From: Branchiostoma floridae
Lineage: Eukaryota > Chordata > Leptocardii > Amphioxiformes > Branchiostomatidae
NCBI RefSeq assembly: GCF_000003815.2
Contig: NC_049980.1
Coordinates: 8,222,209-8,286,208 of the forward strand
Length of the DNA: 64,000 nt
Reading direction: 5' to 3'
Both the position numbers and the translations under genes were made by a program. How positions within the stretch are numbered: the first letter of the stretch is position 1; every line of letters starts with the position of its first letter. Below, in pieces: positions 24,531 to 62,226 of the stretch. The notes under the pieces are model-generated. The model was not told where the DNA came from, made no database searches, and saw only the letters and a list, made by a program, of their open reading frames with translations.

Positions 24531-27500
24531 TTAAAAAGTCTGGTTCACGGCAGGAGCTCCGGGATCGGTAGGCTGGTAACGTGGAGGCAGGGACGTGGCT
24601 CCAGAGGGAAGGGCCGCGGCTCCAGGGGGAAGGGCCGTGGCTCCAGGGGGAAGGGCCGTGGCTCCAGGGGGAAGGGCCGTGGCGTATTGGGTCTGGTTTG
24701 GAGGGAGCGGTGTCATGGCTATGGGCTGTCCCCCCTGCATGACGTACTGGCCGGGTACTATGATCTGGGCCAGTCTGCCGTCTGCTCCCATTTGGTAGGC
24801 AACTGCTGGTGGCTGGTAACAGATCAAAATGTCAATGCATGGTTTCTATGGTGCTGTTTTGTTGACAATGGTTTGTGGACGAAATATCCGATATATGTAC
24901 ATGACAACAATCCAACGGAGTGGAGCAAGTATTGAAAATGTTAATGCCACGCCGTCCCACTGTTAACTTGATGTTAAGGCCTTTCACCTTGAGAGATCAG
25001 AACGTATGTGCGGCGACGGGAGGCCTCGATAAAGAGAACAGTCCTTGTCTCGATCAATGTTCGATTTCCATAACAACATCCAGACGGGTTTTGTTTCCTT
25101 TTTGTGGACCGTAACCTTTGACACATTGTAACCTAGGATTCCTGTCGCCGCACATGCGTCCTGATCTCTGTGAAAGGGCTTATTGTTCCATAGTCCGTCG
25201 AGTAACCGTTCATTGCAATTCTCTTCCACAGACAAAAAGGCTGTATAAAACATGCTATTTACCTGGTGACCCTGACCGTCACATCTGCAGCAGGGGCAGA
25301 CGGCACAACACGTCATCACGGAGGAGGTGATTGACAGCCCAGCCTCCAGCAGGGCTAGGATGACCAACAGCGCGTTAATCGCCAAACGGGCATCCTGGGA
25401 AGAACAACGATTTTTCTATAACTACTGAAATGTCGGGATTTCGCTTTCTGATAATGAACAACAAAATTCAAGACGCTTAAGCATAAACTACTGGAAATAC
25501 AATTTCGCGGGGATTTACTTTCGTGGTAGCGGGAAAATGGTGATTTCGCGGTGGCTTTTAAGTTCGCGGTAGCTCCATAGTCTGTAGTCTCATACTATAA
25601 TGGAAAAATGTTCGCGGTGGTCTCAAGTTCGCGGTAAAAACCGCATTTACAGTACATAATATCACTAGAGATTAAGCAAACAATCCTTTGGTAACGGTTT
25701 GTTATTGCTATAGAGCTCTGTCAGGTACACGATCGAATATACGTTCTGGAAATATAGAATACAACCTGGTGTATTCCGTATCACCCGAGGTATCAGCCCG
25801 ACCGCGGGTCGGATCGCTCGACGATCATACCCACCTCAGAAAACCCCTGTTTTGATGCGAAATGCGCCAGAAGTTGAACAAATTTGGTGCCCTCGAACAA
25901 AAAATGTTGCAACAGTAATGTTCCAACGTCTGAATCAGGTATTCGAACATTCGATGGCGCCGCACTCGGCCCGCTCGAAACAGTTCGATTTATTCGAATG
26001 GAGCCTGTGTGATACGCCTTTCGAACCGGTCTGATACGGAAGTTATGGCCCGGCCCGGAACACCCGTATCGAACGTTTTCGCGTCACAGATATGACATAA
26101 TAAAAACCAGGAAAGCTGCTGGACCGGACGGTATCCCGGGAAAACTCCTCAGGGAATTTGCATATGAACTGAGTGGACCACTTTCTGACGTCATCAACTC
26201 GTCTCTTCTACAGGGGAAAGTACCTGACGAGTGGAAAAGTGCGATCGTGGTGCCGGTGCCCAAAACAAAACCGCCCTCTGTCGATCAACTTCGCCCAATT
26301 TCATTGACTTCCCTGTTGGCCAAAATCGCTGAAGGATTCATCACACAGTGGACTCTGTCTGACATACTACCTCAGATCGACCCCCAACAGTTTGGATGCC
26401 TGAAAGGGAGATCTACTACGCACTGCCTGCTGGACTTAACCAACGACCTGTACAAGGCGTCAGACAAACCGGGAACCCTGTGCTCATTGGTATCTACTGA
26501 CTACAGCAAAGCGTTTGATCGGGTAAGCCACACCATCGCTGTAACCCGATTGATGGAGATGGGTCTGCGTCCGTCTCTTACGTCGTGGATCGTGAACTTC
26601 CTTACGGGGAGACGCCAAGTCGTCCGTTATCAAGGAACCCTCTCCGACAGTGCTACCATAACGTGCGGCCTACCACAGGGAACTCTTCTTGGGCCTCTGA
26701 TTTTTGTGGCTTACATCAACAGTGCGGCGCGTCAAATCTCAGCCAAAAGATGGAAATTTGTGGACGATTTAAACCTGTTAGAGATCAGAAACCCCACCGT
26801 AACACCTTCGTCCCTGCAAAACGACCTTTCTGACCTAGAGAAATGGTCTGGTGAAAACAGCATGGTACTACATCCTGGAAAATGCCAAGTTCTACATGTG
26901 AAGTTCAGCAAAGCAGTATTCATACTACCGCCCCTCAAAATTAACAACAACGAACTACGACAGGTTCAAACCATGAAGATTCTTGGCGTCTTAATGCAGT
27001 ATAACCTGAAGTGGAATGCCCACGTGGACTACATGTACGCTAAATCCAGTCAGCGTTTGTTCTTTCTCAGAAAACTCAAACACTTCCACATCGGAATTGA
27101 AGACCTTGTGATCGTGTACACCACCTACGTCCGTCCGATCACCGAGTATGCTGCACCGGTGTGGCATCCCGGACTGACAACATCCCTGTCCAACAAACTC
27201 GAGATAATCCAACGCAGAGCAGTGCGGATAATCCTGGGAGCTAACTACACCAGCTATGCTGAAGCCTGCTCACAACTTGGCCTACCCTCACTTCACCAGA
27301 GGCGTGAGAACTTGACACTAAAGTTTGCAAAGTCCCTTCTAACATCCAGCCAGTACCGTCATCTCCTGCCACCGGACAGACAGAGTATTAGTGGCAGACA
27401 GACTCGCTCCTCAAACAACTTGGACTTGGTTCATTGTAGAACAGAGCGACATAGAAACAGCGCCGTCCCATATATGGCACGCTTGATCAACACATAGCCC

Positions 27501-30476
27501 ACCAATGTATGATGTTGTTGTAAATAGCTCTAACTTACTTTTAACGACGGTGTTGCGTATTATTGTTTTGAATTTTAAATTGTAATAAGTTGTATACTTC
27601 GCATTTGCTTATCCTATAATCATTTTTGTGTAAAATAATACATAAAAAGACTGTCAAGCAGTGCAATTCAGCCCTTTGGGCTGCAAGACCGCTTTTAATT
27701 TGTCATTCTTGTTGAAATGAATGAATAAACCAATCTACATATATAATGTTGTTTATTATGGTGCCAATATTTACTACCTGGTGTATATTGACTGCTATAA
27801 ATTTTCCTTATATAGTTCAAGAAAGCTTTTACCTTGTCGTTACAATACCTGCACGGTATGTATAGATCTACGAATATCGCAGTGGCCGAGTACTGGAGCA
27901 TGATAATGGTGAAGACTGCTGACACGATGGACAGGACCATGAAGGTTATTATCTGTAGAGTGTTAAACCAAACAAACAGTATAAGTTACTACATGCATTG
28001 AATTCTTTGTGAATTACAAGATGTTGCCTTTGATTGACACCGAATGTAGTTACTCGATAAATAAGGAAAATGGATTTGTCATGACAGAAATCTTAAAGAG
28101 ACGGAAAACTAGCTTTTGCCATGCCAACGTGTCTCTTGAACATATAGATCTAGCATATTCTTATATTGCTAAATAGTGAAGAAGGACTGTTCATGAATAC
28201 AGCTTCACGACTTTTCAAAAAATGCAGATGCAGAACACAGTGACACTTTCCCGAAAAAAAAAAGCTACCAACATAACGTTTAACTCACCATGCAGGTAGT
28301 CTTGCGGACCGCTGCGAATATGCCGACGATTCCAGTAGAAAGGAACTTGGCGTGAAAAACAAATAAAGAAGGAACGCGGTAAGTGAAGGATTTACTTCCA
28401 TTTATTTTCATGGCTACCTTGTCCCCCCAACGACCTGGAGGTCAAGGGACTAGGTAGGTAGGTAGGTAGGTAGGATACACGGACAAACGCTGATTGTCTG
28501 AATAGTACAACACGGCATGCCCAATGGCCTGTGTAACGACACAGGCTAAATGTTATAGCCGCCATAGTACCATTTTATAAAGAATGTTTCTTTAAATGAT
28601 CACTGACTTGCGTCTGTTCAATGTTCCCCTAAACTTTATTTTCAAACTGTATGACCATATATGTTGTTTGCTTTTACCAATAACTAGAGTTCCACGAACA
28701 CATACCTTCGCCAAATAACCATGCCTTTATTCAAGACTTTAAGGTTTCATTCATGTATTTCTTAAGAGTACCTATTCCAAAAGCAATAGACTGCATGGAC
28801 GTGTGTTTGCAGCGGTTGGAAGTTCCATTTTATCCATCCCAACTAAACTCGGGTAGTGTTGTCCACAGACAAACAAACAAACAAACACACATACATACAT
28901 ACAGACGCGGCAGTATATTAGGAAAACGGTAGGGGAACCATTTTGGAACTTAACCTTCCTTTCCACAACAGGTACTTCCCAAGTTTACACCTTCGTCCAA
29001 GTTATGCTCTTGACAGAAGACAGGCCCACACCACGCCGTTTTTTTATGTGACCTAAATAAGTATAGCTAGTTTCCCTGAAATTAGGTCTTACCCGAAAAT
29101 GTAGGGGATTTGTAAACTTTCTCCGTCAATTATGTAAATAAGCCCATGATAAACATAATTAGCATCTCATTATATCAATAAAATTTGCATGATTTATTTC
29201 TAATAATGTTCACCATGCTTCATAATGTTGTAAGTATGGAATTCCCATCATGTACCACTATGGAATTATTATATTATCTCGTTAAATATGCAAATGAGGA
29301 TGCCATCTGCAAATTAATTTCTATTGACATTTCTCTCTTTCTCATTTACATATGCGACAATATCAAAAGTCCTATCATGGAATGCAGTGGATTTATAAAC
29401 CTTGCTCATTGATTATACAAATTAGCTGTTAATTTGCATAATTAGTATCTAGTTATGTAGGTCTCCACTTAGGCTATCTACATACCAAAAATCATGACGA
29501 TCCCTAAACACGCTCAAATTTTCTCTATAATTATGCAAATAAGGTCGTTATTTGCGTAATTGATATCTAGTGATATTTCTCTCTTTCTCAACATATGTGA
29601 CAAGTTTGAAAGTCCTATCATGGAATGCAGTGGATTTATAAACTTTCCTCATTAATTATGCAAATTAACTGTTTGTTTAGTATCACTTAGGCTATCTACA
29701 TACCAAAAATCATGACGATCTGTCAACACGTTCTCGAGTTATTCTCGTCCAAAGTTTGAAATGAAATCGGCGCCTGCAGTTCCAAACAAGCCACCATGGC
29801 GCCAAAACTTGCATGACTTCCTCACTGCCCAAAGACGTATCCACTAGTCAAAAATCGTGAACCTGCCACTTGAGGATGATTTTAACGCCAACTTTGACGC
29901 TCCGCTGCAGTACCTCAACTTATCGCCAGGAGGCCCATTATCGAACTTGACCTTCGGTTTCCCAACCCCTACATAACTACCAAATATCATGCAAAACGAT
30001 CGACAGCGTATTGAGTTATCTTGTTCGCAACCGAACACACACACACACACTCGCCCCGCTGCAGCGCCGACGAAAAGTGACAGGTAAACCGTTTTCAAAC
30101 AATACCTCCGTTCCTGCAACCGCTACTCAAATACCAAATATCATGAAATTCGATCCACAGCTGCTCGAGAGTGACCAAAAGATGCAACCCGTCGACCATT
30201 ACTCTATATGTTGGAATGTAATGTCAGCCGTCATGTATTAATACATGTATTACAGGATACACGTGTGATGTTCAAGGAAGCTTAAGGCACGAGCCTTACC
30301 AGGGCTCCTATCCATATTGGATATCCAGTAAAGCTGAACCGGTCCCGAAGCACGATGATGACGATGCCAAAGACGATGGCCAGACCTCCGCACACCACCT
30401 GAGTGATGGACAGGGCTTTGGCGGCGGAGTTGCCGAAACATTTCGGCGTGCGAGCGGGCTGCTGCTGCTGGCACAT
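24531..30476 (-). CDS. MS4A/CD20-like four-TM protein B2, with fused short tail exon
   Basis: Exons: 30300-30476 (ATG at 30476, MCQQQQPARTPKCFG), 28289-28345, 27833-27952, 25263-25394 and a single last exon 24531-24812; 255 aa. TM1 is about 21-43, TM2 about 51-72, TM3 about 79-103 and TM4 about 122-148. A CCxVCPCCRCDG Cys-rich segment follows TM4. The GYPIWIGAL/FLSTGIVGIFAA block and the KTTCM join are typical of the CD20/MS4A domain, whose members are membrane adaptors or receptor-associated proteins. The last exon starts like exon 5 of the paralogues (PPAVAYQMGADGRL) but ends like their exon 6 (PPRYQPTDPGAP). A 21-bp in-frame repeat (ALPPGAT) lies between the two parts. Extra bases before the end cause a stop after NQTF, so the paralogues' DDVPLIDE ending is lost. 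Intron 3 carries a LINE. Confidence 0.78.
25485..25660. repeat. Dispersed repeat with multiple TTCGCGGTGG motifs in B2 intron 3
   Basis: TTCGCGG-type motifs occur at least five times within 160 bp. The ends are mirror images (TACTGGAAATACAATTTCGCG on the left, CGCGGTAAAAACCGCATTTACAGTA on the right). It resembles a common metazoan MITE type. It is non-coding. Confidence 0.6.
26097..27720 (+). mobile_element. 5'-truncated non-LTR retrotransposon (CR1/Jockey-like reverse transcriptase) in B2 intron 3
   Basis: The open frame runs without a stop from about 26097 to 27497. It has the RT blocks KAAGPDGIPGKLL, DEWKSAIVVPVPK, LRPISLTS, DYSKAFDRV, CGLPQGTLLGPLIF and the catalytic-type FVDDLN, then LGVLMQYNLKWNAHVDY and the C-terminal RRAVRIILG. 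Endonuclease and ORF1 sequences are missing, so the copy is 5'-truncated and not autonomous as it stands. The 3' UTR ends in AATGAATGAATAAA near 27714-27727. The element is antisense to the host MS4A-like gene. The intact RT frame suggests a fairly recent insertion. Confidence 0.85.
28451..28474. repeat. (TAGG)n microsatellite in B2 intron 1
   Basis: Six TAGG units in a row. Confidence 0.95.
28860..30240. repeat. Complex dispersed repeats filling B2 intron 1
   Basis: An approximately 230-240-bp unit occurs twice in tandem: the block GTCCTATCATGGAATGCAGT recurs at about 29371 and 29609, and CTATCTACATACCAAAAATC recurs at about 29474 and 29693. ATGCAAAT-type octamers recur within it. The flanks hold CAAA/CATA/CA simple repeats (28869-28913, 30035-30050) next to ACCAAATATCATG-type blocks. 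No exon is seen. Confidence 0.6.
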
Positions 30477-33339: not shown

Positions 33340-33838
33340 TGTTCAGAACAATACCTGGTTATTGACAATATTCGGCACAGGACGGCCGTCACAAAACTAC
33401 GAATCAGTTGCCACAAATTACACATTGAAACCGGAAGACATAACAGCACTCCTCTAGAACAACGAGTATGAAGATAACGTAACTGCAATCTAGATAAGTT
33501 AGAAGACGGACATCATTTTGTAGTAGAATGTAGTTTGTACAAGAAAGAGAGAGCTGAACTCTATAGACTGATAGAACCCATGTTCCCCCACTTCATACCA
33601 CTAAGTAAAATAGACAAATTTATATTCCTTATGTATTAAGACAAACCTTTACTTATAGATAAAGCATATCTGTTCCTACATTTTCAACATCACAAAGAAG
33701 AAGTCGAATTCACGCAGTAGAATACGATTCTTGAGTATTGTAGATTCATTGTATATATTCCATGTATCTTTTGTCGCGACCTGTACTGAACCCAGAGGGT
33801 ATGTATGTACAATAAAGGTCTTCATTCATTCATTCATT
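33340..33838 (+). mobile_element. Decayed 3' end of a LINE abutting the stop codon of B1
   Basis: The plus strand translates, across several stops, to NIRHRTAVTKLRISCHKLHI, then ETGRH..TPLEQR, LEDGHHFVVECSLYKKERAE and LIEPMFPHFIPLSKIDKF. This is the C-terminal region of CR1/Jockey-like reverse transcriptases. It ends with AATAAAGGTC and four ATTC units at 33822-33838. Only the last ~500 bp are present. The left border is approximate. Confidence 0.75.
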
Positions 33839-36800
33839 ATTCATCGATGAGAGGGACATCATCATCCTGAAAAGCCTGGTTCGCGGCAGGAGCTCCAGGA
33901 TCTGTAGGCTGGTAACCAGGCGGCGGGGACGCGGCGGTGGGTTGGGGGGAGGTCTCGTGCTGGGGTACGGTCGGCTGCTGTTGGGGCTGCACAGGGTACG
34001 GGGAGGACCCGGGTTGTGGGGCGATAGGCTGCTGGAACTGAACCTGAGGCACAGACTGTGCGCGTGGCTGCTGCTGACTCGTGACTTGTGGCATGGGGAT
34101 GGGGGTGGACGTGGCGAGGACGTACTGGATATTACCTGTAAGGAATCCAGAGAAGGGTGACGTTTCAACAAGGTATGATTGCAATTGATTCATTCATTCA
34201 TTATCGTTCACATTTCATGATTTTCTAACAGTGGAAATTGAATCAGAAACGCCCAGCTTTTGCGTCGTACCAACATCCATCGGTGGATCTCTTCTGAAGA
34301 TCTATGCCAACACTTCCAGAGTTGAAAATATTAAAGAGACTATCGTTCTATGATTTAGTATCAGATAAAACTTACCACCGTGTCCAACAGTTGGCAGTGC
34401 TGGGATCATCTGTGGCTGAGAAGGTGGTGCACGAGCGCCTCCTTGCGCCTGTTGCCCTGCCGGAACAAGCACAACGTTCCCTTGTGGCTTGGGACCCTGT
34501 ACAGCGGTCCCCTGGGCAGCAACCATGTTGGCAGGTGCCTGAGTGATGAGTAGGGGTTGTTGGGCAGCAGCTCCTGGGAGAAGGGGCGCGGCTCCAGGGG
34601 GAAGGGCCGTGGCGTATTGTGGCTGGTTTGGAGGGAACGGTGTCATGGCGATGGGCTGTCCCCCCTGCATGACGTACTGGCCGGGTATCTGGACCAGTCT
34701 GCCGTCTGCTCCCACCTGATAGGCAACTGCTGGTGGCTGGTGACAGATCAAAGTGGTATATGATTTCTGTGTTGTTTTATTGGCAAAGCTTTGTTGGAGA
34801 AATATCATACATGTACATGACATCAATCCAACGGATTCAGCTGAAGCAAGTTTTGCAAGAATTGATGGTCCCATACTCCTTTAACAACCTCCCTCTGGCC
34901 ATTCCCATAACCAATCCAAATTTGGTGCCAAATGGCTATCTTAGCATGCTGAATGCTAGGTAACCGTCTATTGTTATTCCTTTCCATAGCGCAGCAGAAG
35001 TGCTGTACGAGAACGTAACCAAGACGCCCGGTAATAAATTGGCCTGACTATGTAAATCTTCTAGCAGCCCTCTTCCATTAGGTCAGGCCTTGGCAGCGAG
35101 AAGGTATGATGTACGTAACATGGGCTAGACACCAAAGAAACAACCCGTTTTTACCTGGTAACCAGGCTGGCCGTCACAGCTGCAGCAGGTATCCTGACCG
35201 TCACCTCTACAGCAGGGGCAGACAGCACAACACGTCATCACGGAGGAGGTGATTGACAGCCCAGCCTCCAGCAGGGCCAGGATGATCAGCAGCGCGTCCA
35301 TCGCCACACGGGCAGCCTGAGAAGTACAACATGAATAAACAAAATTTGCATAAAATAAATTAACAACAAAGCAATTGTACTTACTTAGTAGAAATCTGCA
35401 AGGTACATGACTGAATTTACTCTCCTGAATGTGTTTTTGTTGCACATTGGCTACTAGTTAATGTAAACTTAATAAGCTATGAATGTTGTTCGAGAAAGTT
35501 TTACCGTGTCGTTGCAATAGTCCTGGATCTCCCAGCACCATCTGTATCGATCATAGTCTACCGCAGTGGCCGCTAAGCCGAGCATGATAGAGGTGAAGAA
35601 GGCGGACACGATGGACAGGATCATGAAGGGTATCATCTGTACAATGTAAAGAAACGCACGAACAGGTTACTATTTTCATTGAAGTTTAGTGTATTACGAT
35701 TTGTTGCCTTCGGTTGAATATGAATGTAGTTACTTGATACTGTCTTTTGAGAAATGATTTTGTCATGATAGGATGTCAAAGTCAAAGAGATGGAAACTGA
35801 ATAGCTTCCGTCATACCAATAAGGTGTCCCTAGCTTAAGCATATAACCTATTTCTATTTTCATTTTGCTTCATAGTTTACACTTTCCCGGAGGAAGTTAT
35901 CAACAAAGTGTTTGACTCACCTATGCATGTAGTCTTGCGGACCGCCGCGAATATGCCGACGATCCNNNNNNNNNNNNNNNNNNNNNNNNNNNNNNNNNNN
36001 NNNNNNNNNNNNNNNNNNNNNNNNNNNNNNNNNNNNNNNNNNNNNNNNNNNNNNNNNNNNNNNNNAACGCACGAACAGGTTATATTTTCATTGAAGTTTA
36101 GTGTATTACGATTTGTTGCCTTCGGTTGAATATGAATGTAGTTACTTGATACTGTCTTTTGAGAAATGATTTTGTCATGATAGGATGTCAAAGTCAAAGA
36201 GATGGAAACTGAATAGCTTCCGTCATACCAATAAGGTGTCCCTAGCTTAAGCATATAACCTATTTCTATTTTCATTTTGCTTCATAGTTTACACTTCTCC
36301 CGGAGGAAGTTATCAACAAAGTGTTTGACTCACCATGCATGTAGTCTTGCGGACCGCCGCGAATATGCCGACGATCCCGGTAGAAAGGAACTTGGCGTGA
36401 AAACAAAGAAACAAAGACGTAGATCAACAGAAAACGCAAGTAACAAGCCCAATGGCGTATGAACATCGCGTATCAGCTGCCAACAGCACAGGCTAAGTGT
36501 CATAGCCGTCATAGTTTGTTATCACTCTTTTACGTCTGTTCAATATTCCTCTAAACTCCATGACAAAGTAAGGAAGAGATCCTGATACAGGCGTGAAACT
36601 CCCGCGGATACTGTCCTTGCCCAATGATATAAATCGATGGACTGACCAAAGTTGCAACCCGACCATCACTCGGCATGTTGGAATGTAGTGTCTGCGTACA
36701 CTGCCCAAGCAAATCTATTGCATACTTTGAGCTGTTAACGTTATGTATCAACACATCATCTATCACAGAGTGCACGTGCGATGTTCAATCAAGGCCTTAC

Positions 36801-42600: not shown

Positions 42601-44547
42601 GGTTCTGGAAGAACATGAGATTGCACACAGGGAGAAATTATTAAATATGAGATTTCAAACATTCAAATATTGCATCAGGTGATCAACCGCTCTGGTCACT
42701 GTACAACGATTGCAACTCTCATCATGACATGGGAAAATTGAAAGCCTTCGACAAATTGGTACAAAGTGGATCCGGAGGAGAGATTGATTCGTGTACTCTA
42801 ATATTCACAACACCAAAAGTAAAAAGGATGAAAAATGCTTACACTGGCTGACCCCAAATAACACCGCCGCACAGCATGTGATTCGTGACGTGTACTTGTA
42901 GTTAATCAGTGTATGAACTTTATGACTAGAGTTCCACGCACAGTCTCATACATTCGTCGAATGATGTTACCTTTTTCGAGTGACGTATTATATACATGCT
43001 TCTCGTTGATTATGAAAATAACATTCTCATGTACATAAGTCATATTAGTTGATTATCCTTTAGACCCAAACAACACTTGTTCAAAGTACGATGTCCTATC
43101 TTAAGCAAAGATGCCCAAACCTACACCCTCTTTCCTATCATATAAAAGCCACCAAAAAGATCCAGTACACGGCATATCATAACCGCAAGTTCTGTTATAG
43201 TGCCATGGAAAGCCTCCATGAGGAGCCCACAAATCTATCCATTTCCTTTTTTTTGTCACAACCTACCAACGTACCAAATACAAAACCAATCGATTCAGAC
43301 GTACTTGAGTTATTTGGTAACTAATAGACATAGACGCACATACACAAGCCGCTGGCTGCCCAAGATATAACCTTTCTGATAAGCTGTATGTGTGTGTAGA
43401 TAGTCTAACTAACCTGGGATTACACCTTTACCTCGTTCCACCAGCTCTATGAGTACCCAATGTATGTTCTGACAAAATGAAGCATTGACTCAGTACTGTA
43501 TTTAGTACTAGTAGAACAACTGCGCCAACGTGCACGTCGTAAATACCCTACAGTCTATCAAAGTTGGTTTGTATATCACTACATATTACACACCATCAGA
43601 TCAGTGAGCCGGTAGTATAATTGTACACTAAACAGAAAGAAGCGCATTTTTTAACGTTTTACCTAGTGTAACGATGCACTGCGACGTCAGCAACTTAAAG
43701 AATGTTCCCCTGCGTTGGGTCTCACCCACTGGTGTGTGTAATAGGGTCGAAGGTCAACGCCCTTACGTGCCTTCCACTTGTTGTTGTGCAACTTTGGTAT
43801 TTGTGACACGTACATTGCCTCGATCGATTTGTTGCTTCAACATTTTCAAATATGTAATGTCAAACGACAAGGGAACTCAGTATGTTGCTCCGATTCTTAC
43901 ACATGGCATAGATATGATGCGGTATACCTTATTTCAATGAACAGGAGCTGAGAGATAAAAAAAAAGCAAAAAAAAGCCACTTGGTAATGGCGACTTTGGT
44001 TTCCTTTTCAAACTCATGACAATATAAAGGGTAAGAAAAACATCAAACTTATGTTTATTCCCGCTATCTACTCTTTTTGAAATTAGACTATAAGGTGCTG
44101 TAGAGTCCATTCCAAGTGCCGCAATGATTTATCAATCATATGTTTAACGTTCTAATGTCTCCCATTAGATGGAAGGAACAAGCACCTTTCATGTCTTTAG
44201 ATTTTCATATACTAGGATCGTCCTAGAATTGTACTATCATTGTCTATCATCGTGTAAATCAACAGTTAAAGCCGAGCTCTTCTTAGATTTGACATAAATA
44301 GTTGCGTAATAAAGTCTCTATGCTGTCTTGCTCCATTTGTACACATGTATTTCAAAATCTGTATGAAGAACTCAACATGCTATTCATGTCACGTCTGAAA
44401 GTTTAGTTTGTGCATAAATACACTAAATTATTACGTTATTTTGTACCTAAAGACACTATATATATTATTACGTTAGATGATGAAAGAGAGTATAGTCTAT
44501 GGTTTCACTGGGCATGGTCTTCGGATTACAGATCTCGAGGTTTCCGC
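42601..44547. other. A5 upstream region and A4-A5 intergenic spacer
   Basis: It holds the A5 5' non-coding exon (donor 43663). It is closely similar to 53690-55250 (upstream of A3) in its first 1.3 kb, and to 59640-60030 (downstream of A1) in its last 0.6 kb. No extra gene was seen. The short ORFs at 43091 and 54382 are the same duplicated non-coding DNA. Confidence 0.6.
43663..43800 (-). other. 5' non-coding exon of MS4A-like gene A5 (donor side)
   Basis: The minus strand reads CGTTACACTAG|gtaaaac at 43663. The paralogous positions in A4 and A3 read ACACCAG|gtaaac. The acceptor is ttcttccag|AACC before ATG 42600. A conserved CGTTGACCTTCGACCC lies at 43744-43759. The upstream end of the exon is not determined. 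Confidence 0.5.
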
Positions 44548-47067
44548 TTAATCTTCAATGAGAGGCTCGTCGTCTTGCTCAGTCGGCATGGCCTGGTTTG
44601 CAACGCCACGAGCGTCAGGATCATCAGGCTGGTAGCTGGGGGGAGGGGAAGGTCCCGTGGGTGGGGCAGAGGCTTGTCCCTGGGGTACGGTTGGATGCTG
44701 TTGTGGCTGGAGTTGTGCTGGGTGCGGGTAGGGCGCGGCCTGGCTGGGCTGCTGGAACTGAACCTGTGGTACGGACTGTAGCGACTGCTGACCTGCCGCT
44801 TGTGCTGTGGGTGTGGCGATGACATATTGCGCGTTTCCTGAAGCGAAATATGAGTATATTCATAACATGTCAAAAGTTCGCATAGTTAAATAAGAGTTAC
44901 ACATGTGTGTTTCAGTTACAGCTTTGTAAAAGATATCTTAGATATTAGCTATAGAATATCTCCTCCACGTTTCAGAATCCCGTGGTTTTCTATTTAACTG
45001 TCCCTTACTTTATGGTTTCCACTGTCCCAAACGTACCGTGCCCACCTGTTGACATCGGCGGTGCTACATGATACTGATGTGCTGCAGGAGCGACACCCTG
45101 CACCGGGACAAACACAACGTTCCCTTGTGGCTTGGGACCCTGCCCGGCCCCAGCGGCAGCAGCCATGTTGGCAGGTGTCTGTGTGACGAGTAGGGGTTGT
45201 TGGACCGCGGCTCCAGAGGGAAGGGCCGTGGTTCCTGAGGGAAGGGCCGTGGCGTATTGTGGCTGGTTTGGAGGGAACGGTGTCATGACGATGGGCTGTC
45301 CCCCCTGCATGACGTACTGGCCGGGTATCTGGACCAGTCTGCCGTCTGCTCCCACCTGATAGGCAACTGCTGGTGCCTGGAATAACAGTTACTGCAGGTG
45401 AATATAAACTTCGAACGTAAATGTTAAAGAGCGAAGCAAATCTTATAGATGGCCAATACCTAGAATAGAATGAAAATCTTGTCTTTTCATCGCTGTTACA
45501 ACGCATAGTACCCAAAGCAATTAAGGCATGTCAGGTATGATTGCTATTTTTCTTTTAGTTATGATGTATTCCTTTTGCTTCTAGCATTCTGACTTAGTCT
45601 GATAGTGTCTTAATTTTTGTCGTCTTTCTGTACTTACGGGCAAGCTTCCTTACGGGCAAGCTCCCTTCCAGTAAAATGTTGTCTAAGCGTTAAAATGCGA
45701 GACATCACCTGGTAGCCACTGTTGTTACATGTATCACAGCAGGTACAACTGTCCGTACTTCCCTCGGTGCAGCCCGGACAGATCGCATAACACGTCATGA
45801 CGGAGGTGGCGATGGCCAGGCCCAGCTCCAGGAGGGCCAGTAGGATCAGCAGGACGTCAAACGCGATGATGGCGCCCTGATAATCAGATGCAAGCGTCGT
45901 CATAAAAGCGCCACAGCATCGCGTTTGATGCTTTGATTATGAGGAGACGTACTCTAATATGTACTAAACTAAAGGCGGTTAGATCCCACAAGGACGTTAC
46001 TCAGCAGACCTATGGAATGATTCATCATCAGGCCACAGCAAGATGGGCAGACACCATAAATGTTGTAACAAGACCTAAAGGGAACAAAACGTGGTATCAC
46101 AACCAACGAGGCATTCATTCCTGTATTCAAGAACAAAAAAAATTAAAGGCATGTACTGGCATAGTAAAAGTGGCACTAGTATGGTAGACTGGTATCACTA
46201 ACAAAGTGGCCTTATGGCCATGCATGTGATTGAACATTATGGTTATTTGTTACTATGCACGATGTGCTAGCTGTCAAAAATGAATGTTAATTCACTCGTA
46301 TGGGCATGGACAATGACTTACCGTTGGACATTCACTAAGTGGAAAATTCCAGCACCATCCCCAGACATCACTTGAAAGTGCGATGGCCGCGATGACGAGG
46401 GTAACGGTTCCCGCCAGGATGGACGAAAGGATGGACAGGACCATCAGAGGTATGATCTGTACATAATGAGTAAACAAAAATGATCATGACAAACTATAGT
46501 GCAGAGGGGGTGTGATTTTAGCCATAGCTGTTATTTACCTTACCAAAATTTTACAGCAATGGAACAATATCGTCATGACGCAACATAGATCTGGACGTTA
46601 AAGCGACAGGCCCACAAAGGTGAGCGGGTTCGCACCTGTTCAGTGGATACTTTGCAACAATAAATGTGAACTTACCATACATTTGGTCTTGCGTTTCGCC
46701 GCAAAGATGCCGATGATTCCAGTAGAGAGGAACTAAAGGTACAACAAGGGGATCTATCATGACAATATGATGAAGGAGAATATCATTGTGTTGTGAATTC
46801 AAAAATAGAGCGCCATACATGCACGTACCCTGGTGTAAAATGCAAAGTTGTGAATATGAAAACAAAACGGTTAACATTGTATATTCTCACCAACGCCCCG
46901 GTCCAGATAGGATACCCTATGACGAAGAGTCCACTTCCCGGTATGATGATGGCGATGCCCAATAGTATGGCCGCTGATCCACACACTATCTGTGTGATAG
47001 ACAACGCTTTGACGGTGTTGCCGCTAAAACATTTTGGAGTAGGGCGGGGTTGCTGGAACATATGCAT
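44548..47067 (-). CDS. MS4A/CD20-like four-TM protein A4, complete
   Basis: Exons: 46891-47067 (ATG at 47067), 46676-46732, 46322-46456, 45709-45876, 45037-45376, 44548-44837 (TAA); 388 aa. TM1 is about 21-43, TM2 about 51-72, TM3 about 79-105 and TM4 about 129-155. The Cys-rich segment CPGCTEGSTDSCTCCDTC is present. Exon 5 starts APAVAYQVGADGRLVQIPGQ and has two ALPSG-type 7-residue units (ALPSGTT, ALPSGAA). The tail ends PPPSYQPDDPD...QDDEPLIED. N- and C-termini are predicted cytosolic as in MS4A proteins. All splice sites and phases agree with A2 and A3, and no lesion was found. Confidence 0.85.
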
Positions 47068-49128: not shown

Positions 49129-49265
49129 CTGGTGTAACGATGGACTGCGAGAATTTCCTGAGTTGGGCCTCACTCAGCGGTCAGTGTGTGATAGGGTCGA
49201 AGGTCAACGTCCTTACGTACACTTGTTGCTGTGCAACTTTCGGGTATTTGTGACACGTACATTGC
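49129..49265 (-). other. 5' non-coding exon of MS4A-like gene A4 (donor side)
   Basis: The minus strand reads CGTTACACCAG|gtaaacgtt at 49129. It is paralogous to 43663 and 54953. The CGTTGACCTTCGACCC motif lies at 49194-49209. The upstream end of the exon is not determined. Confidence 0.5.
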
Positions 49266-49591
49266 CTCGATCGATTCGTTGCTTCAACGTTTTTCAAATA
49301 TATGATATCAAATTACAAGGGAAATCAAAATTTCTCTGTCAAAATTCTTTGTGTCTGTTTCACATGAGATAAATATGAAGCGATCTACATGTACCTTGTT
49401 CTAATGAACAGGGCCTAAAGAGATAAAAAGACCAAATAAACCACTTGAAAATGGCGACTTTGGTTCCCTTTTTCAACTCATTATAGTATAAACCGTAAGA
49501 AAACATAACACTTGTGTTGCCGTTATTCAGTCTTTTTGAAACAAGAGTACGTGATGCTGCAGAGTCCAATCCACGGTGTGTGGCAAGGATT

Positions 49592-51314: not shown

Positions 51315-53648
51315 TTAATCTTCGATGAGAGGCTCGTCGTCTTGCTCAGTCGGCATGGCCTGGTTTACAACGCCACGAGCGTCAGGCTCAGCAGGCTGGT
51401 AGCTGGGGGGAGGGGAGGATCCCGTGGGTGGGGCAGAGGCTTGTCCATGGGGTACGGTTGGCTGCTGTTGTGGCTGGAGTTGTGGTGGGTGCGGGTAGGG
51501 CGCGGCCTGGCTGGGCTGCTGGAACTGAACCTGTGGCACGGACTGTAGCGGCTGCTGACCTGCCGCTTGGGCTGTGGGTGTGGACGTGGCGATGACATAC
51601 TGCATGTTACCTGAAGCAAAATATGTCTGTATCAATAACATGTTAAAATTTCACAACGTTAAATAAGAGGTATTTCGATCGTACACGTGTTTCAGGTGCA
51701 GTTTTGTAATTAATAACTGAGATATTAAAATTTCTCCTCCGTGTGGTATAATGGTTTCTATTGTTGTCCCAAACTTACCTTGCCCACCTGGTGACATCGG
51801 CGGTGCTACATTTTGTACTTGGTGCTGACGTGGTGCAGGAGGGACACCCTGCACCGGGACAAACACAACGTTCCCTTGTGGCTTGGGACTCTGCCCGACC
51901 CCAGCGTTTGCCTGGGCAGCAGCCATATTTACAGGTGTCTGTGTGATGAGTAGGGGTTGTTGGGCCGCGGCCGTGGCGTGTTGGGGCTGGCTTGGAGGGA
52001 ACGATGTCATGGTGATGGGCTGTCCCCCCTGCATGACGTACTGGCCGGGTATCTGGACCAGTCTGCCGTCTGCTCCCATCTGATAGGCGACTGCTGGTGC
52101 CTGAAAGATATCAAATACAGACGAATCAAGTTTGAGCGTAAAGAGTAAAGCAAACCTGGATTCTTTAGGTGGTACTGCAGAAGAGATGTTCCTGCGAATG
52201 AAAATCTTGTCCCTTCATCACTGTTAGTCCAGATAGCATGCAGAGCAACATATGTTAGATCGGGTGTTTGACAGTTCATTTTGGAACGTCTTTTTGTGCT
52301 GACAGTCCTCTTTCTTTACAATTCCTATGTAGTGCGTTAAAATGCGAGACATTACCTGGTATCCACTGTTGTTACATGTATCACAGCAGGTACAACTGTC
52401 CGTACTTCCCTCGGTGCAGCCCGGACAGATCGCATAACACGTCATGACGGAGGTGGCGATGGCCAGGCCCAGCTCCAGGAGGGCCAGTAGGATCAGCAGG
52501 ACGTCAAACGCGATGATGGCGCCCTGATAATCAGATACAAGTCTCGTCATAAAAGCGCCACAGCATCGCGTTTGATGCTTTTAGCATGAGGAGGCACACT
52601 CCAATATGCACTAAACTAATGGCGGTTAGATCCCTAAAGGACGATACTCAGAAGTCTAGACCTATAATTCATCATTATGGCCATTTGACTTATATCATGA
52701 CTGTGTTGCTGTATACGCGATGTGCTTTCTGTCAAAGCATCTGTGTCAATTCACTTGTATGGGTATGGGTATGGAAAACGGTTTACCGTTGGACATTCAC
52801 TGCCTGGAAAATTCCAGCACCATCCCCAGACATCATTTGAAAGTGCGATGGCCGCAAGGACGAGGGTAACGGTTCCCGCGAAGATTGACGAGAAGATGGA
52901 CAGAACCATTAGAGGTATGATCTGTACACAAAGAGTACCACGACATAAATCATAACAAAATGCAGAGGTGTGTTCAGTCACCTCTTTCCGTACAAAAATA
53001 CGTTTGTAGAGCAACGGAACTATGTCGTCACGATGGAACTTCGATCTGGACGTAGAAGCGATAGACCCACAAGGTAAGCGGGCTCGCCCCTGACTCGACC
53101 GCTGTTATTTTGCCACTGCGCAGCGTCAACATTTAAACATCTTTACTGACATCTGAATTACTTGATGAGTACATGACCCATCCTCTTAGGGGCCCATATA
53201 AGCAAACGTTTGTAAATAGCACGGGATATTAAGTGGATACTTTGCAACAATAATTGTGAACTTACCATACATTTGGTCTTGCGTTTCGCCGCAAAGATGC
53301 CGATTATTCCTGTAGAGAGGAACTAAGGGTACAACAAAGGGATCTGTCATGACAATACGAATGAGAATATCGTTGTGTTGTGAAGTTTAAAATAGAACTC
53401 CATACATAACCTCGCATAAAAGGCAAAGTCGTGACTATGAAAACAAAAGGGTTAACATTGTACATTCTTACCAACGCCCCGGTCCAGACAGGATACCCAG
53501 TTCGGAAGAGCTCACTGCCCGGTATGATGATAGCGATGCCCAGTAGTATGGCCAGGGATCCACACACTATCTGTGTGATAGACAACGCTTTGACGGTGTT
53601 CCCGCCAAAACATTTTGGAGTAGGGCGGGGTTGCTGGAACATGTGCAT
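51315..53648 (-). CDS. MS4A/CD20-like four-TM protein A3, complete
   Basis: Exons: 53472-53648 (ATG at 53648), 53266-53322, 52787-52921, 52356-52523, 51779-52100, 51315-51610 (TAA); 384 aa. Same topology as A2: TM1 in exon 1, TM2 split over exons 1 and 2, TM3 in exon 3, TM4 plus Cys-rich CPGCTEGSTDSCTCCDTC in exon 4. Exon 5 lacks the ALPSGA unit present in the paralogues (it reads QHATAAAQQPLLI). The tail ends PPPSYQPAEPD...QDDEPLIED. Exon 1 differs from A5 at only a few residues, and its upstream spacer is nearly the same as that of A5. No lesion was found. Confidence 0.85.
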
Positions 53649-54064: not shown

Positions 54065-54952
54065 AGATTGATTCGTGTACTCTAATATTCACAACACTAA
54101 AAGTAAAAAGGTCCGGGGATGAAAAATGCTTACACTGGATGACCCCAAATAACACCGCCACACAGCATGTGATTCGTGACGTGTACTTGTAGTTAATCAG
54201 TGTATGAACTTAGTGACTAGAGTTCCACGCACAGTCTCATACATTCGTCGAATGATGTTAGCTTTTTCGAGTGACGTATTATATACATGCTTCTCGTTGA
54301 TTATGAAAATATCATTCTCATGTACATAAGTCATATTAGTTGATTATCCTTTAGACCCAAACAACACTTGTTCAAAGTACGATGTCCTATCTTAAGCAAA
54401 GATGCCCAAACCTACACCCTCTTTCCTATCATATAAAAGCCACCAAAAAGATCCAGTACACGGCATATCATAACCGCAAGTTCTGTTATAGTGCCATGGA
54501 AAGCCTCCATGAGGAGCCCACAAATCTAACCATTTCCAGTTTTTGTCACAACCTACCAACGTACCAAATACAAAACCAATCGATTCAGACGTACTTGAGT
54601 TATTTGGTAACCAATAGGCATATAGACGCACATACACAAGCCGCTGGCTGCCCAAGATATAACCTTTCTGATCAGCTGTATGTGTGTGTAGATAGTCTAA
54701 CTAACCTGGGATTACACCTTTACCTCGTTCCACCAGCTCTACGAGTACCCAATGTATGTTCTGACAAAATGAAGACTTGACTCAGTACTGTATTTAGTAC
54801 TAGTAGAACAACTGCTCCAAAGTGCACGTCGTGAATACCCTACAGTCTATCAAAGTTGGTTTGTATATCACTACATATTACACACCATCAGATCAGTGAG
54901 CCGGCAGTATAACTGTACACTAGACGGAAAGAAGCGCATTTTTAACGTTTAC

Positions 54953-55090
54953 CTGGTGTAACGATGCACTGCGACGTCAGCAACTTAAAGAATGTTCCCC
55001 TGCGTTGGGCCTCACCCACTGGTGTATGTGATAGGGTCGAAGGTCAACGTCCTTACGTGCCTCCCACTTGTTGTTGTGCAACTTTGGTAT
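54953..55090 (-). other. 5' non-coding exon of MS4A-like gene A3 (donor side)
   Basis: The minus strand reads CGTTACACCAG|gtaaacgtt at 54953. The CGTTGACCTTCGACCC motif lies at 55034-55049. The upstream end of the exon is not determined. Confidence 0.5.
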
Positions 55091-55730
55091 TTGTGACACG
55101 TACATTGCCTCAATCGATTTGTTGCTTCAACATTTTCAAATAGGTGATGTCAAATGACAAGGGAACTCAGTATGTTGCTCCGATTCTTACAAATGACATA
55201 CATATGAAGCGGTATACCTTATTTCAATGAACAGGAGCTGAGAGATAAAAAAAGCGAAAAAGACACTTGACAATAACGACTCTGGTTTCCTTGTCGAACT
55301 CATGACAATAGAAATTGTAAAAAAAACATAAAGCTTGTGTTGACGTAAATCCTTTTCAAAATATGAGTATGTGGTGCTGCAGAGTCCATTACAAGGTGCC
55401 GCAAGGATTTTTCAATCACATGTTTAACGTTCCAATGTCATCCATTACATGGATGGAACAAGCACATCTTCTTATAGCACGTTCGTCATAGAATCATCGT
55501 CTCTGTCATCGTGTAAAACAGTGCTCTTCTAAGAGTTGACATAACAAATATTGCGTAAGAAAGTCTCTATGCTGTCTTGCTTCATGTGTATTTCAATCTG
55601 TATGAAGAACATGCTACTCATGACACTTCTGGAAGTATCAGAAGTATATATATCATTGCGTTAGATGATGATAATAGAGCCTATGGCTTCAGTAGACGTG
55701 GTCTTCGGGTTACGGATCTCGAGGTGCCAT

Positions 55731-58191
55731 TTAATCTTCGATGAGAGGCACATCGTCTTGTTCAGTCGGCATGGCCTGGTTTGCAGCGCCACGAGCGTCA
55801 GGCTCAGCGGGCTGCAGCTGGTAGCTGGGGGGAGGGGAGGATCCCGTGGGTGGGGCAGAGACTTGTCCCTGGGGTACGGTTGGCTGCTGTTGTGGCTGGA
55901 GTTGTGGTGGGTGCGGGTAGGTCGCGGCCTGGCTGGGTTGCTGGAACTGAACCTGTGGCACGGACTGTAGCGGCTGCTGACCTGCCGCTGGTGTTGACGT
56001 GGCGATGACGTACTGCATGTTGGCTGGAGCAAAATAACATGTTAAAAGTTCATCTGGTTGAAATAGGAGTATCTCCATAGTAGACATGTGTACGTTTTAG
56101 TTTCAGCTGTGTGATTAATGGTTAAGATGTCTGAATCTCTCCTCCCTATGTGGCATTAGGGTTAAGGTTTCCACTTTACTGTCCCAAACTTACCTTGCCC
56201 ACCTGTTGATATCGGTGGTGCTACTTGGTGCTGAAGTGGTGCAGGAGGGACACCCTGCACCGGGACAAACACGACGTTCCCTTCTGGTTTGGGACCCTGC
56301 CCGGCCCCAGCGTTCCCCTGAGCAGCAGCCATGTTGCCAGGTGTCTGTGTGACGAGTAGGGGCTGTTGGGCCGCAGCTCCAGAGGGAAGGGCCGTGGCGT
56401 ATTGCGGCTGGTTTGGAGGGAACGGTGTCATGGCGATGGGCTGTCCCCCCTGCATGACGTACTGGCCGGGTATCTGGACCAGTCTACCGTCTGCTCCCAC
56501 CTGGTAGGCAACTGCTGGTGCCTGAAATGACAGTTATTGCAGATGAATTTAAACTTCGAACGTAACTGTTAAAGAGCAAAGAGAATCTTATAGGCGACAA
56601 AGTTCCTACTAGAGTACGTTCAACTTGGAAATCTTGTCCTTTCACCTGTTACAACAAATATACACAAAGTGATTACGACATATATCGGGGAACGGATTCT
56701 TTTAGTTGTCATAGATAACTTTTGCTTCTACCATTCTGACATGGTCAGAGAGTGTCTTAATTTTTGTCGTCTTTCTATACTTATCGGCAAGCTCCCTTCC
56801 GAATTTCAGCTAAAATTAAAATATTGTCTCAGCTTCAAAGGGCGAGACATTACCTGGTAGCCACTGTTGTTACATGTATCACAGCAGGTACAATTGTCCG
56901 TACTTCCCTCGGTGCAGCCCGGACAGATCGCATAACACGTCATGACAGAGGTGGCGATGGCCAGGCCCAGCTCCAGGAGCGCCAGTAGGATCAGCAGGAC
57001 GTCAAACGTGATGATGGCGCCCTGATAATCAGATACAAGTCTCGTCATAAAAGCGCTACAGTACCACGTTTGATGCTTTCAGGATGATGAAAGGTACTCC
57101 AATATTCACTAAACTACAGACGGTTAGATCCCACAAGGACATTACTCAGAAATCTAGACCTATAATTCATCATTATGGCGATTTGACTTATCTTATGATT
57201 ATGACTGTGCTGCTGTATATTACAATGCGCGATGTGCTTTCTGTCAAAGCATCGGTGTTAATTCACTCGTATGTGTATGGAAACTAGTTTACCGTTGGAC
57301 ATTCACTGCCTGGAAAATGATCGCACCATATCCAGACATCATATGAAAGTGCGATGGCCGCAAGGACGAGGGTAACGGTTCCCGCCAGGATGGACGAGAG
57401 GATGGATAGAATCATCAGAGGTATGATCTGTACACAAGAGTAAAACGTCATACATGTAAATGATAACAAACTACAGAAGTATATCCAACTATAACTGTTA
57501 GTTACCGTATAAGATACATTTTTACAGCAACAGAACTATATCTTCACGATGCAACTTCGATCTCGACGTAAAAAACGACAGGCTCACGAAGTGAGCGGGC
57601 TGGCACCTGACTCGACCGTTATATTTTGCCACTGCGCCGCGTCATCATTTAAACGATTATACTGACATCTGAATTACTTGATGCATATGAGTACATTACC
57701 CATACTCATTGGAGCCTATACAAACAGGTTATGTATGTAAATAACACCAGTACTGCTGCCCGTAATGTTCATGAATTCAGTAGATATTTTGCAACAATAA
57801 ATGTGAACTTACCATACATTTGGTCTTGCGTTTCGCGGCGAAGATGCCGATGATTCCAGTGGCGAGAAACTAATTAATAAGGGTACAACAAGGGGTCATT
57901 ATGTTGTGATCATGAATTTAAAAATAGAGCTCCATACATACCCTCGTATAGAATTAAAATCGTAAATATGAAAACATACATGTAAGGGTTAACATTGTAT
58001 ATTCTTAAGCTTACCAACGCTCCGGTCCAGATCGGATATCCAGTCCGGAAGAGCGCGCTACCCGGTATGATGATAGCGATGCCCAATAGTATGACCACGG
58101 ATCCACACACTATCTGTGTGATAGACAACGCTTTGACGGTATTCCCGCCAAAACATTTTGGAGTAGGGCGGGGTTGCTGGAACATATGCAT
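55731..58191 (-). CDS. MS4A/CD20-like four-TM protein A2, complete (reference copy of the array)
   Basis: Exons: 58015-58191 (ATG at 58191), 57813-57869, 57293-57427, 56854-57021, 56194-56521, 55731-56023 (TAA); 385 aa. Order: cytosolic MHMFQQPRPTPKCFGGNTVK; TM1 21-43 (ALSITQIVCGSVVILLGIAI); TM2 51-72 with the MS4A-type GYPIWTGAL..ATGIIGIFAA; basic KRKTKCM loop; TM3 79-105; extracellular loop with two Cys; TM4 129-155; Cys-rich CPGCTEGSTDNCTCCDTC; then a P/Q/A-rich cytosolic tail. The tail ends PPPSYQLQPAEPD...QDDVPLIED. MS4A proteins act as membrane adaptors, chemosensors or regulators of receptor trafficking; the role here is unknown. The family call rests on topology and the TM1/TM2 pattern. 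Claudin or tetraspanin was considered, but their W-GLW-C-C and CCG motifs are absent. Confidence 0.86.
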
Positions 58192-59310: not shown

Positions 59311-59450
59311 CTTCCACCAGTTCTGGTGTAACGATGTATTGCGACGTCGGTAGTTGATAGAATTTCCCCTGCGTTGGGCCTCCGTGACCCACTGGTGCGT
59401 GTAATAGGGTCGAAGGTCAACGTCCTTAAGTGCCTCCACCCACTTGTTGC
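59311..59450 (-). other. 5' non-coding exon of MS4A-like gene A2, with a shifted splice donor
   Basis: The usual donor after TTACACCAG is gone; the next bases are AACTGG. A deletion joined this point to DNA that lies about 230 bp away in A4 and A3. Sixteen bases further the minus strand offers TGGAAG|gtgagg at 59311. The CGTTGACCTTCGACCC motif is kept at 59407-59422. Confidence 0.45.
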
Positions 59451-60030
59451 TGTGGAACTTTGGCATTTGTGACACGTACATTGCCTCGATCGATTCGTTG
59501 CTTCAGCATTTTCAAATATGTGATATCAAATTACAAGGGAACTCAGCATGGCATAAATATGAAGAGATTTACCTTATTTCAATGAACAGGACCCGAGAGA
59601 TTGAAAAAAAAAAGAGAGAAGAAAAGCCACTTGATAATGGTGACTTTGGTTCCCTTTCAAACTCAAGACAGTATAAAGGGTAAGAAAAAACATCAAACTT
59701 GTGTTTATTCCCGTTATTTACTATTTTTGAAATTAGAGTATAAGGTGCTGCAGAGTCCATTCCAAGTGCCGCAATGATTTATCCATTACATGGATGGAAC
59801 AAGCTCCTTTCATGTCTTTAGATTTTCATATATTAGGATCGTCCTAGAATCGTACTATCATTGTCTGTTATCGTGTAACACTTAAAGCTGAGCTCTTGTT
59901 AGATTTGACATAACAATAGTTGCGTAATAAAGTCTCTATGCTGTCTTGCTCCATTTGTATTTCAAAATCTGCATGAAGAACTCAACATGCTATTCGTGTC
60001 ACATCTCAAAGTTTAGTTTTAAGACACTAT

Positions 60031-60838: not shown

Positions 60839-60918
60839 TTACGTTAGATGGTGAAAGAGAGTATAGCCTATGGTTTCACTGGGGGTGGTCTTCGGATTAC
60901 AGATCTCGAGGTGCCCGC

Positions 60919-62226
60919 TCAATCTTCGATGAGAGGCACATCGTCCTGCTCTGTCGTCATGGCCTGGTTTGTAGCGCCACGAGCGTCAGGATCAGCAGGC
61001 TGGTAGCTGGGGGGAGGGGAAGGTCCCGTGGGTGGGGCAGAGAATTGTCCCTGGGGTAGGGTTGGCTGCTGTTGTCCTGGGTGCGGGTAGGGCGCGGCCT
61101 GGCTGGGCTGCTGGAACTGCACCTGTGGTACGGACTGTAACGGCTGCTGACCTGCCGCTTGGGCTGTTGACGTGGCGATGACGTACTGCACGTTACCTGA
61201 AGCAAAATGTGTGAATATTCATAACATGTTAAAAGTTCACATAGTTAAATAAGAAGTACACATGTGTGTATCAGGTGCAGCTTTGTAATTGATTTCTGAA
61301 ATATTAGACTCTCTCCTCTACGTTTCAAAATCCACTGGTTTTCTATTGTCCTTTACTTTATGGTTTCCACTTTACTGTCCCAAACGCACCGTGCCCACCT
61401 GCTGGCATCGCTGGTGCTACATGATACTGATGTGCTGCAGGAGCGACACCCTGCACCGGGACAAACACAACGTTCCCTTGTGGCTTGGGAACCTGAACGG
61501 CCCCAGCGGTCCCCTGGGCAGCAGCCATGTTGGCAGGTGTCTGTGTGACGAGTAGGGGCTGTTGGGCCGCGGCTCCAGGGGGAAGGGCCGTGGCGTATTG
61601 TGGCTGGTTTGGAGGGAACGGTGTCATGGCGATGGGCTGTCCCCCCTGCATGACGTACTGGCCGGGTATCTGGACCAGTCTGCCGTCTGCTCCCACCTGG
61701 TAGGCAACTGCTGGTGCCTGAAATGACGGTTATTGCAGATGAATCTAAACTTCGAACGTAACTGTTGAAGAGAAAAGCAAATCTTATAGATGACAATGTT
61801 TCTAGAATACAATGGAAATCTTGTCCTTTCATCGCTGTTGTACACAAGCAGGTAGTACACAAAGCGATTAAGACATGTCGGGTACGATTGTTATTTTCTT
61901 TTAGTTCTGATAAGTACCATTTGCTTCTACAATTCTGGCATGGGCATGGTCAGAGAGGGACTTAATTTTTGTCGTCTTTCTTTACTTGCGGGCAAGCTCC
62001 CTACCGAAGTTCAGTTAAAATTAAAATATTGTTTCAGATTGAACGACAGGGTCATTACCTGGTATCCACTGTTGTTACATGTATCACAGCAGGTACAATT
62101 GTCCGTACTCCCCTCGGTGCAGCCCGGACAGATCGCATAACACGTCATGACGGAGGTGGCGATGGCCAGGCCGAGCTCCAGGAGGGCCAGTAGGATCAGT
62201 AGGACGTCAAACGCGATGATGGCGCC
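60919..62226 (-). CDS. MS4A/CD20-like protein A1, only exons 4-6 in the window
   Basis: Exons: 62059-62226 (TM4 and Cys-rich CPGCTEGSTDNCTCCDTC), 61390-61717 (APAVAYQVGADGRLVQIPGQ...), 60919-61196 (tail; PPPSYQPADPD...QDDVPLIED, stop TGA where the paralogues have TAA). Phases agree with the other copies. Exon 3 should start about 270 bp upstream of exon 4, but the shared intron sequence breaks off at about 62385 and is followed by a minisatellite and unrelated repeats up to the end of the window. So exons 1-3 are either displaced beyond 64000 by insertions or lost. The sequence that remains shows no lesion, so it could still be part of a working gene. Confidence 0.72.

Follow-up and report, generated by a model that had tools for sequence, protein, structure and literature searches.

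An array of MS4A/CD20-like genes was analysed in a window of 64,000 nucleotides (contig NC_049980.1, positions 8,222,209 to 8,286,208; the window is this whole stretch, and all coordinates below refer to it). Self-comparison of the DNA and of its proteins, together with tblastn of exon peptides, revealed seven copies of one gene between 24531 and 62226, all on the minus strand, in agreement with an earlier note made from the sequence. These limits run from the end of the stop codon of the gene here called B1 to the first base of exon 4 of the gene here called A5. The interval between repeated blocks is 9.9 kb from B1 to B2 and 4.4-6.7 kb from there to A5. Exons were placed by tblastn of the exon peptides and spliced with GT and AG borders, which gave the following gene models.

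24531..30476, minus strand: gene B1, 5 coding exons (30300-30476, 28289-28345, 27833-27952, 25263-25394, 24531-24812), 255 aa
33837..36977, minus strand: gene B2, 6 coding exons (36801-36977, 36334-36390, 35505-35636, 35155-35316, 34376-34736, 33837-34135), 395 aa
39713..42600, minus strand: gene A1, 6 coding exons (42424-42600, 41519-41575, 41019-41159, 40646-40768, 40154-40508, 39713-40008), 382 aa
44548..47067, minus strand: gene A2, 6 coding exons (46891-47067, 46676-46732, 46322-46456, 45709-45876, 45037-45376, 44548-44837), 388 aa
51315..53648, minus strand: gene A3, 6 coding exons (53472-53648, 53266-53322, 52787-52921, 52356-52523, 51779-52100, 51315-51610), 384 aa
55731..58191, minus strand: gene A4, 6 coding exons (58015-58191, 57813-57869, 57293-57427, 56854-57021, 56194-56521, 55731-56023), 385 aa
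60919..62226, minus strand: gene A5, exons 4-6 (62059-62226, 61390-61717, 60919-61196), 257 aa

The earlier note had described seven six-exon genes. Five of them (B2 and A1-A4) are complete six-exon genes and their full reading frames contain no internal stops, while B1, with five exons, and A5, with exons 4-6 in the window, are partial copies. The common exon borders and phases that it had claimed were reproduced by the spliced models: introns 1-4 are in phase 0 in every modelled case and intron 5 is in phase 1, and exon 1 (177 bp) and exon 2 (57 bp) have constant lengths in all six copies having these exons. In vertebrate MS4A genes, a 57-bp exon codes for the second transmembrane segment (TM2). 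The division into two subfamilies, A with MHMFQQPRPT and B with MCQQQQPART, was also recovered, and synonymous divergence between A and B2 exceeds 1 in 6 of 9 segments.

Membership of the CD20-like family

A search against Pfam PF04103 (CD20), which the earlier note had proposed as a check on its MS4A/CD20 identification, placed all six proteins with a membrane domain above the gathering cut-off of 27.9 bits, with scores of 43.5 to 57.2 bits and E-values of 2.3e-14 (B1), 1e-14 (B2), 2.2e-11 (A1), 4.3e-11 (A2), 3.4e-14 (A3) and 2.6e-15 (A4); A3 and A4 were searched as their first 179 aa. PF04103 was the sole Pfam family above cut-off, and the other families listed fell short of theirs. The full profile was covered in five of the six, the best stretch of B1 corresponding to profile positions 1-82 of 156. 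The 257-aa A5 had no Pfam match with an E-value of 1 or less, an expected outcome given its lack of TM1-TM3. Tetraspanin (PF00335) was rejected, its best score of 17.1 bits (B1) lying below its gathering cut-off of 32.1 bits, and NCBIfam gave for A4 two bacterial matches, both far below cut-off.

The PDB (177635 sequences) was searched with a profile of the seven proteins and with the A4 membrane domain alone. In both cases all eight matches at E up to 1 were Fc-epsilon-RI-beta or CD20, and the best E-values, both to Fc-epsilon-RI-beta, were a modest 2.6e-06 and 3.6e-06. This result is cleaner than that from Pfam because the Pfam model may itself hold invertebrate members. Control sequences of A4 were shuffled inside each segment with hydrophobicity kept, in view of a published objection on generic membrane-protein similarity. 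None of the eight such shuffles matched CD20 at E-values up to 10, nor did one reversed copy, HMMER filters concealing most matches above about E 0.1. A tenth control, in which the segments were kept whole and only rearranged, retained the CD20 match (2.6e-08), with residues 104-155, which comprise TM1 and TM2, as the best stretch against profile positions 1-61. The array proteins thus belong to the CD20-like, MS4A-type family, and the identification made in the earlier note is upheld.

Vertebrate MS4A proteins are characterised by GYPFWG, by FIISGSLS, by SLxxN and SxxxAxxG in TM3 and, in most members, by two cysteines in loop 2 (PMC11663944; this and the other papers cited by number are drawn on in excerpt). 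The conserved block predicted as GYPIW.GA(L/F) was found in slightly wider form, GYP[IV]W.GA[LF], in all six copies having exon 1, and its W is followed by T or I, not G. FL[SA]TGI[IV]GIF stands in the TM2 area where the vertebrate FIISGSLS would be. Two loop-2 cysteines occur in all six proteins with a membrane domain. Both are in register with Fc-epsilon-RI-beta in five of the six alignments shown, and the second is off by one residue in the sixth; the CD20 matches stop short of loop 2. SLxxN and SxxxAxxG did not occur in TM3 of the array proteins, which reads LSILSSILAGTVTL or similar; both motifs are described as common, not defining, for MS4A (PMC11663944). With a Kyte-Doolittle mean of 1.6 as the criterion, four hydrophobic regions were obtained in B1, B2, A2 and A4, while TM2 of A1 and A3 scored <1.6, though aligned to the same residues.

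The array therefore shares with vertebrate MS4A (CD20/MS4A1 and Fc-epsilon-RI-beta/MS4A2) the CD20 profile, GYPxW before TM2, the loop-2 cysteines, the clustering of genes and the best PDB matches. It differs in lacking SLxxN, SxxxAxxG and the G after GYPxW, and in a tail, about 200 residues long, that carries PPxY and an acidic dileucine. Owing to the TM3 motifs and the missing G, we file the proteins as CD20-like and MS4A-type, outside the vertebrate MS4A subfamilies.

Two other affinities were weighed. The CD20 similarity could be convergent in an unrelated four-pass family, as Zuccolo et al. (2010) viewed invertebrate sequences; only short similar stretches were reported there from several invertebrates including B. 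floridae, with convergence suggested (PMC2826416), and the lack of the vertebrate-typical TM3 motifs agrees with this. However, the whole CD20 profile is matched in five of six proteins, the match is family-specific and lost on within-segment shuffling, and both loop-2 cysteines align with Fc-epsilon-RI-beta in five of six alignments. Convergence is disfavoured by these comparisons, and we hold it to be very improbable. Alternatively, the proteins could be TMEM176-like, that is intracellular and cation-channel-like, with the tail fixing the compartment. TMEM176A/B are classed in the same superfamily as MS4A (PMC11663944), which makes them akin to the array at that level, and the sorting motifs of the tail would suit an endosomal protein. 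TMEM176A/B have partial similarity only to MS4A proteins (PMC2826416), however; GYPxW and the two loop-2 cysteines are MS4A features (PMC11663944), and the PDB matches are MS4A1 and MS4A2, in a set whose content of TMEM176 structures was not checked. A TMEM176-like nature is thus unlikely, and MS4A-type membership is retained below.

Variable loops, common tail and probable exchange within exon 5

A finding new here is the greater variation of the putative extracellular loops compared with the remaining protein. Among A1-A4, 11 of 28 loop columns are variable versus 15 of 153 elsewhere in the first 179 residues (Fisher P 0.0003), with the loop borders set by hand from the alignment and the outward facing of the loops taken from homology. 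Both loops are short, with 8 and 14-20 residues. Pooled over the A-A comparisons, non-synonymous divergence (dN) is 0.395 in loop 1, 0.170 in loop 2 and 0.011-0.053 in the four TM-containing segments, and its ratio to synonymous divergence (dN/dS) is 1.08 in loop 2 and 0.41 in loop 1, against 0.37 overall for A1-A4; the loop values come from few sites and from non-independent pairs. Between B1 and B2, dN/dS exceeds 1 in TM3 (2.09), loop 2 (1.37) and TM4 (1.02), again on few sites. Change in the loops may accordingly be relaxed or diversifying, and positive selection is not proven by these rates.

Exons 5 and 6 encode the putatively cytosolic tail. Its length is 201-219 residues in six of seven copies, close to the 200 or so described in the earlier note, and 93 in B1. 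Pro, Gln and Ala make up 45-51% of it. The sorting motifs claimed for it are there at the motif level: PPxY in seven of seven tails and an acidic dileucine, [DE]xxxL[LI], in six of seven (not B1), a retention that is also new here; a sorting function is a prediction from these motifs. YxxPhi and P[ST]AP were found in none of the seven tails. PPxY is bound by NEDD4-type ubiquitin ligases and DDxPLI by clathrin adaptors. With A-A dN/dS of 0.39 in exon 6 and 0.48 in exon 5, the tail is under moderate constraint. A Cys-rich stretch after TM4 is kept in A2-A5 and B2 and is shorter in B1 and A1. In exon 5 another frame is open in all copies. The B1 tail also contains a coding repeat, whose copy number varies, with fewer units outside B1.

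24589..24683, minus strand: coding minisatellite in the B1 tail, 21-bp unit, 4.5 copies, ALPPGAT-type

The further claim that vertebrate MS4As lack such tails was too strong, since MS4A14 of human and bovine has an exceptionally long C-terminal region (PMC2826416); the likeness of MS4A14 to the array lies in this description of an MS4A protein, not in tail sequence. Among the matches listed from the open-licence literature, no title or abstract described the array or such a tail, and nothing relevant was found for PPxY or dileucine in MS4A.

Part of the tail is nearly identical between the two subfamilies. Its far end was set by hand at the YATALP codons and is approximate.

34599..34736, minus strand: near-identical tract, first 138 bp of B2 exon 5, 0-3 synonymous differences versus the A genes

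Over exons 1-4 and 6 the synonymous difference between A1-A4 and B2 is 0.54-0.59, whereas in the tract it amounts to 0 to 3 of about 31-35 synonymous sites (A5, 1 of 31.7). Between A1-A4 and B2, the remainder of exon 5 has intermediate values (0.31-0.40). With sites taken as independent, the tract has binomial probabilities of 3e-08 to 7e-14. Within it B2 shows 2 differences from A2 but 9 from its sister B1, and B1 stands at synonymous distances of 0.13-0.16 from the A genes, about equal to its distance from B2. General constraint explains little of this, because the A genes differ among themselves by 0.097 in the tract versus 0.143 in exons 1-4 and 6. A constraint at the DNA level, such as dual coding, is disfavoured likewise: the A-A difference falls only from 0.143 to 0.097, yet that between A and B2 falls from 0.54-0.59 to 0-0.10. 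Near-identity of the tract between A genes and B2 is best explained by gene conversion, as judged from these distances, and this too is new here.

Local duplication is evident elsewhere in the array. Blocks of intergenic sequence upstream of A1 recur 11.29 kb away upstream of A3 with 94-98% identity, as part of a 3.2-kb block that occurs twice (84% identity overall), and the exon 1 regions of A1 and A3 are 92% alike.

42781..46004: duplicated block, A1 upstream region and A2 exons 6-4
54065-57149: the same block again, A3 upstream region and A4 exons 6-4

The pairs A1+A2 and A3+A4 thus probably arose by a two-gene duplication. Speaking against a tidy duplication history, the 3' half of A2 resembles A5 (84.8%) and A4 equally closely. 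Judged by these repeats, the array grew by local duplication. In zebrafish, the 21 ms4a genes form one highly related group, which was interpreted as having diversified recently from a single ancestor gene (PMC2826416), and the array resembles these vertebrate genes in being a closely related group.

Irregular copies and neighbourhood

In B1 intron 5 is absent, and exon 5 continues into what corresponds to the end of exon 6, so that the two are fused; the frame stops ahead of the dileucine that B2 carries, and PPxY is retained. A reverse transcriptase open reading frame (ORF) lies within B1 intron 3 (26013-27494, plus strand; RVT_1 in Pfam, E 1.1e-25). For exons 1-3 of A5, no minus-strand tblastn match was found past 62226 in the window (one plus-strand chance match, E 7.6), so these exons are outside the window or missing. 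Beside this missing 5' part, at 62576-62799, there is a 37-bp tandem repeat of 6 copies rich in GACGTCGG. Exon 4 of A1 (40646-40768) is without the Cys-rich segment of A2-A5 and needs the weak donor GTGGTA, which suggests altered splicing with exon 4 reading into that donor. Near B2 exon 2, an assembly gap of 100 N (35966-36065) is flanked by a repeat of ~313 bp, 99% identical (35653-36377), which duplicates part of that exon and is probably an unresolved assembly overlap or artefact.

Part of the array could accordingly be decaying or be an assembly artefact, with only some genes working; the lost tail of B1, the incomplete A5, the weak A1 donor and the repeat across the N gap would agree with this. 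Against it stand the five frames without internal stops, the dN/dS of 0.37 among A1-A4 and the synonymous difference of ~14% between A copies in exons 1-4 and 6. Such a difference exceeds usual allele divergence. We consider decay or artefact quite unlikely as an account of the array.

Upstream of the A genes, a CAG resembling a splice acceptor stands 4 bases ahead of the ATG in A1-A4, and a 5' non-coding exon is therefore likely in these genes. A conserved non-coding block of ~150 bp lies ~1.1-2.2 kb upstream of exon 1.

43730-43860: conserved upstream block of A1, with TTGACCTTCGACCC
49190-49300: conserved upstream block of A2, with TTGACCTTCGACCC
55030-55140: conserved upstream block of A3, with TTGACCTTCGACCC
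59400-59515: conserved upstream block of A4, with TTGACCTTCGACCC

The block is perhaps a candidate shared promoter or 5' exon, and its TTGACCTTCGACCC, present in 4 of 4, is what we take to be like a nuclear-receptor DR1 site. An ORF upstream of A2 (50126-50791, minus strand) looks like the C-terminal part of a reverse transcriptase and matched nothing in Pfam at E-values up to 0.01. Eight flank pieces and the two retrotransposon ORFs were surveyed against Pfam. At 19016-21739 on the minus strand there are pieces of a neighbour gene that code for an acidic stretch and for several AT-hook-like motifs (GRGRPKK, GRGRPRK); Pfam AT_hook was above cut-off in one of four pieces tested and just below in another, and the gene looks HMGA-like from these motifs. 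No structured RNA at Rfam gathering scores and no transfer RNA were found.

Possible role and age of the array

We propose that the array proteins may be MS4A-type adaptors with copy-specific loops and a common sorting tail, a functional reading to which we give an even chance. The proteins, with both termini in the cytosol, would reside in endosomes or at the plasma membrane, and their loops would pair, copy by copy, with different partner receptors or ligands. The common tail would recruit NEDD4-type ubiquitin ligases through PPxY and clathrin adaptors through DDxPLI, and each copy would then determine how much of its partner is at the surface and how that partner is sorted in endosomes. A variable outside combined with a shared inside is the pattern that such an adaptor family would show. 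Known MS4A proteins lend the role support by analogy, as MS4A4A steers KIT recycling and MS4A3 enhances cytokine-receptor endocytosis (PMC11663944).

Several points weigh against this proposal. Partner, localisation, topology and transcription are all putative for the array proteins. The matches to CD20 in the PDB are weak (E 0.00087-0.045) and span TM1-TM3 only. Silent sites of loop 1 also change fast (synonymous divergence 0.955 versus 0.06-0.32 in the TM segments), so that its variation is not purely at the protein level, and the loop rates have the small, pooled basis given above. Short motifs arise readily in Pro-rich tails, their conservation is known from paralogues of one window only, and the pattern is uneven, B1 being without the dileucine and A1 without the Cys-rich segment.

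The copies could instead be ligand-sensing receptors (chemosensors other than G-protein-coupled receptors, GPCRs) of one specificity each, the tail serving only for turnover or ciliary targeting. The concentration of variable columns in the putative extracellular loops would agree with this. Tandem gene arrays whose loops vary are characteristic of receptor families, and mouse MS4As were reportedly identified as non-GPCR chemosensors in a 2016 study. CD20/MS4A1 has also been reported as a mammalian olfactory receptor (PMC11026480). On the other side, the loops are short, expression is putative, and loop variation equally fits partner choice. We regard ligand sensing as possible and doubtful, and keep the adaptor role as our working proposal.

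With regard to the age of the family, invertebrates were concluded to lack MS4A or MS4A-like genes after searches that included lancelet sequences (PMC2826416, in the excerpt drawn on here). A literature search for "membrane-spanning 4-domain" together with Branchiostoma found none. The CD20-like family was listed among metazoan-specific expansions in a 2017 survey (PMC5620054, likewise an excerpt), so finding it in animals other than vertebrates may be no novelty in itself. Should the host be an invertebrate, the array speaks against the 2010 view of convergence: for a window from an invertebrate chordate, the full-length CD20 match and the shared cysteines make an older origin the simpler reading, and the origin of MS4A becomes testable by intron positions. 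We tentatively suggest, at somewhat less than even confidence, that MS4A predates vertebrates and forms here a receptor-like array, in which the loops diversify copy by copy and gene conversion keeps tail exon 5 alike between subfamilies with long-diverged membrane domains. The array would also be a natural set of variants with which to ask what is recognised by MS4A loops when the tail is held constant.

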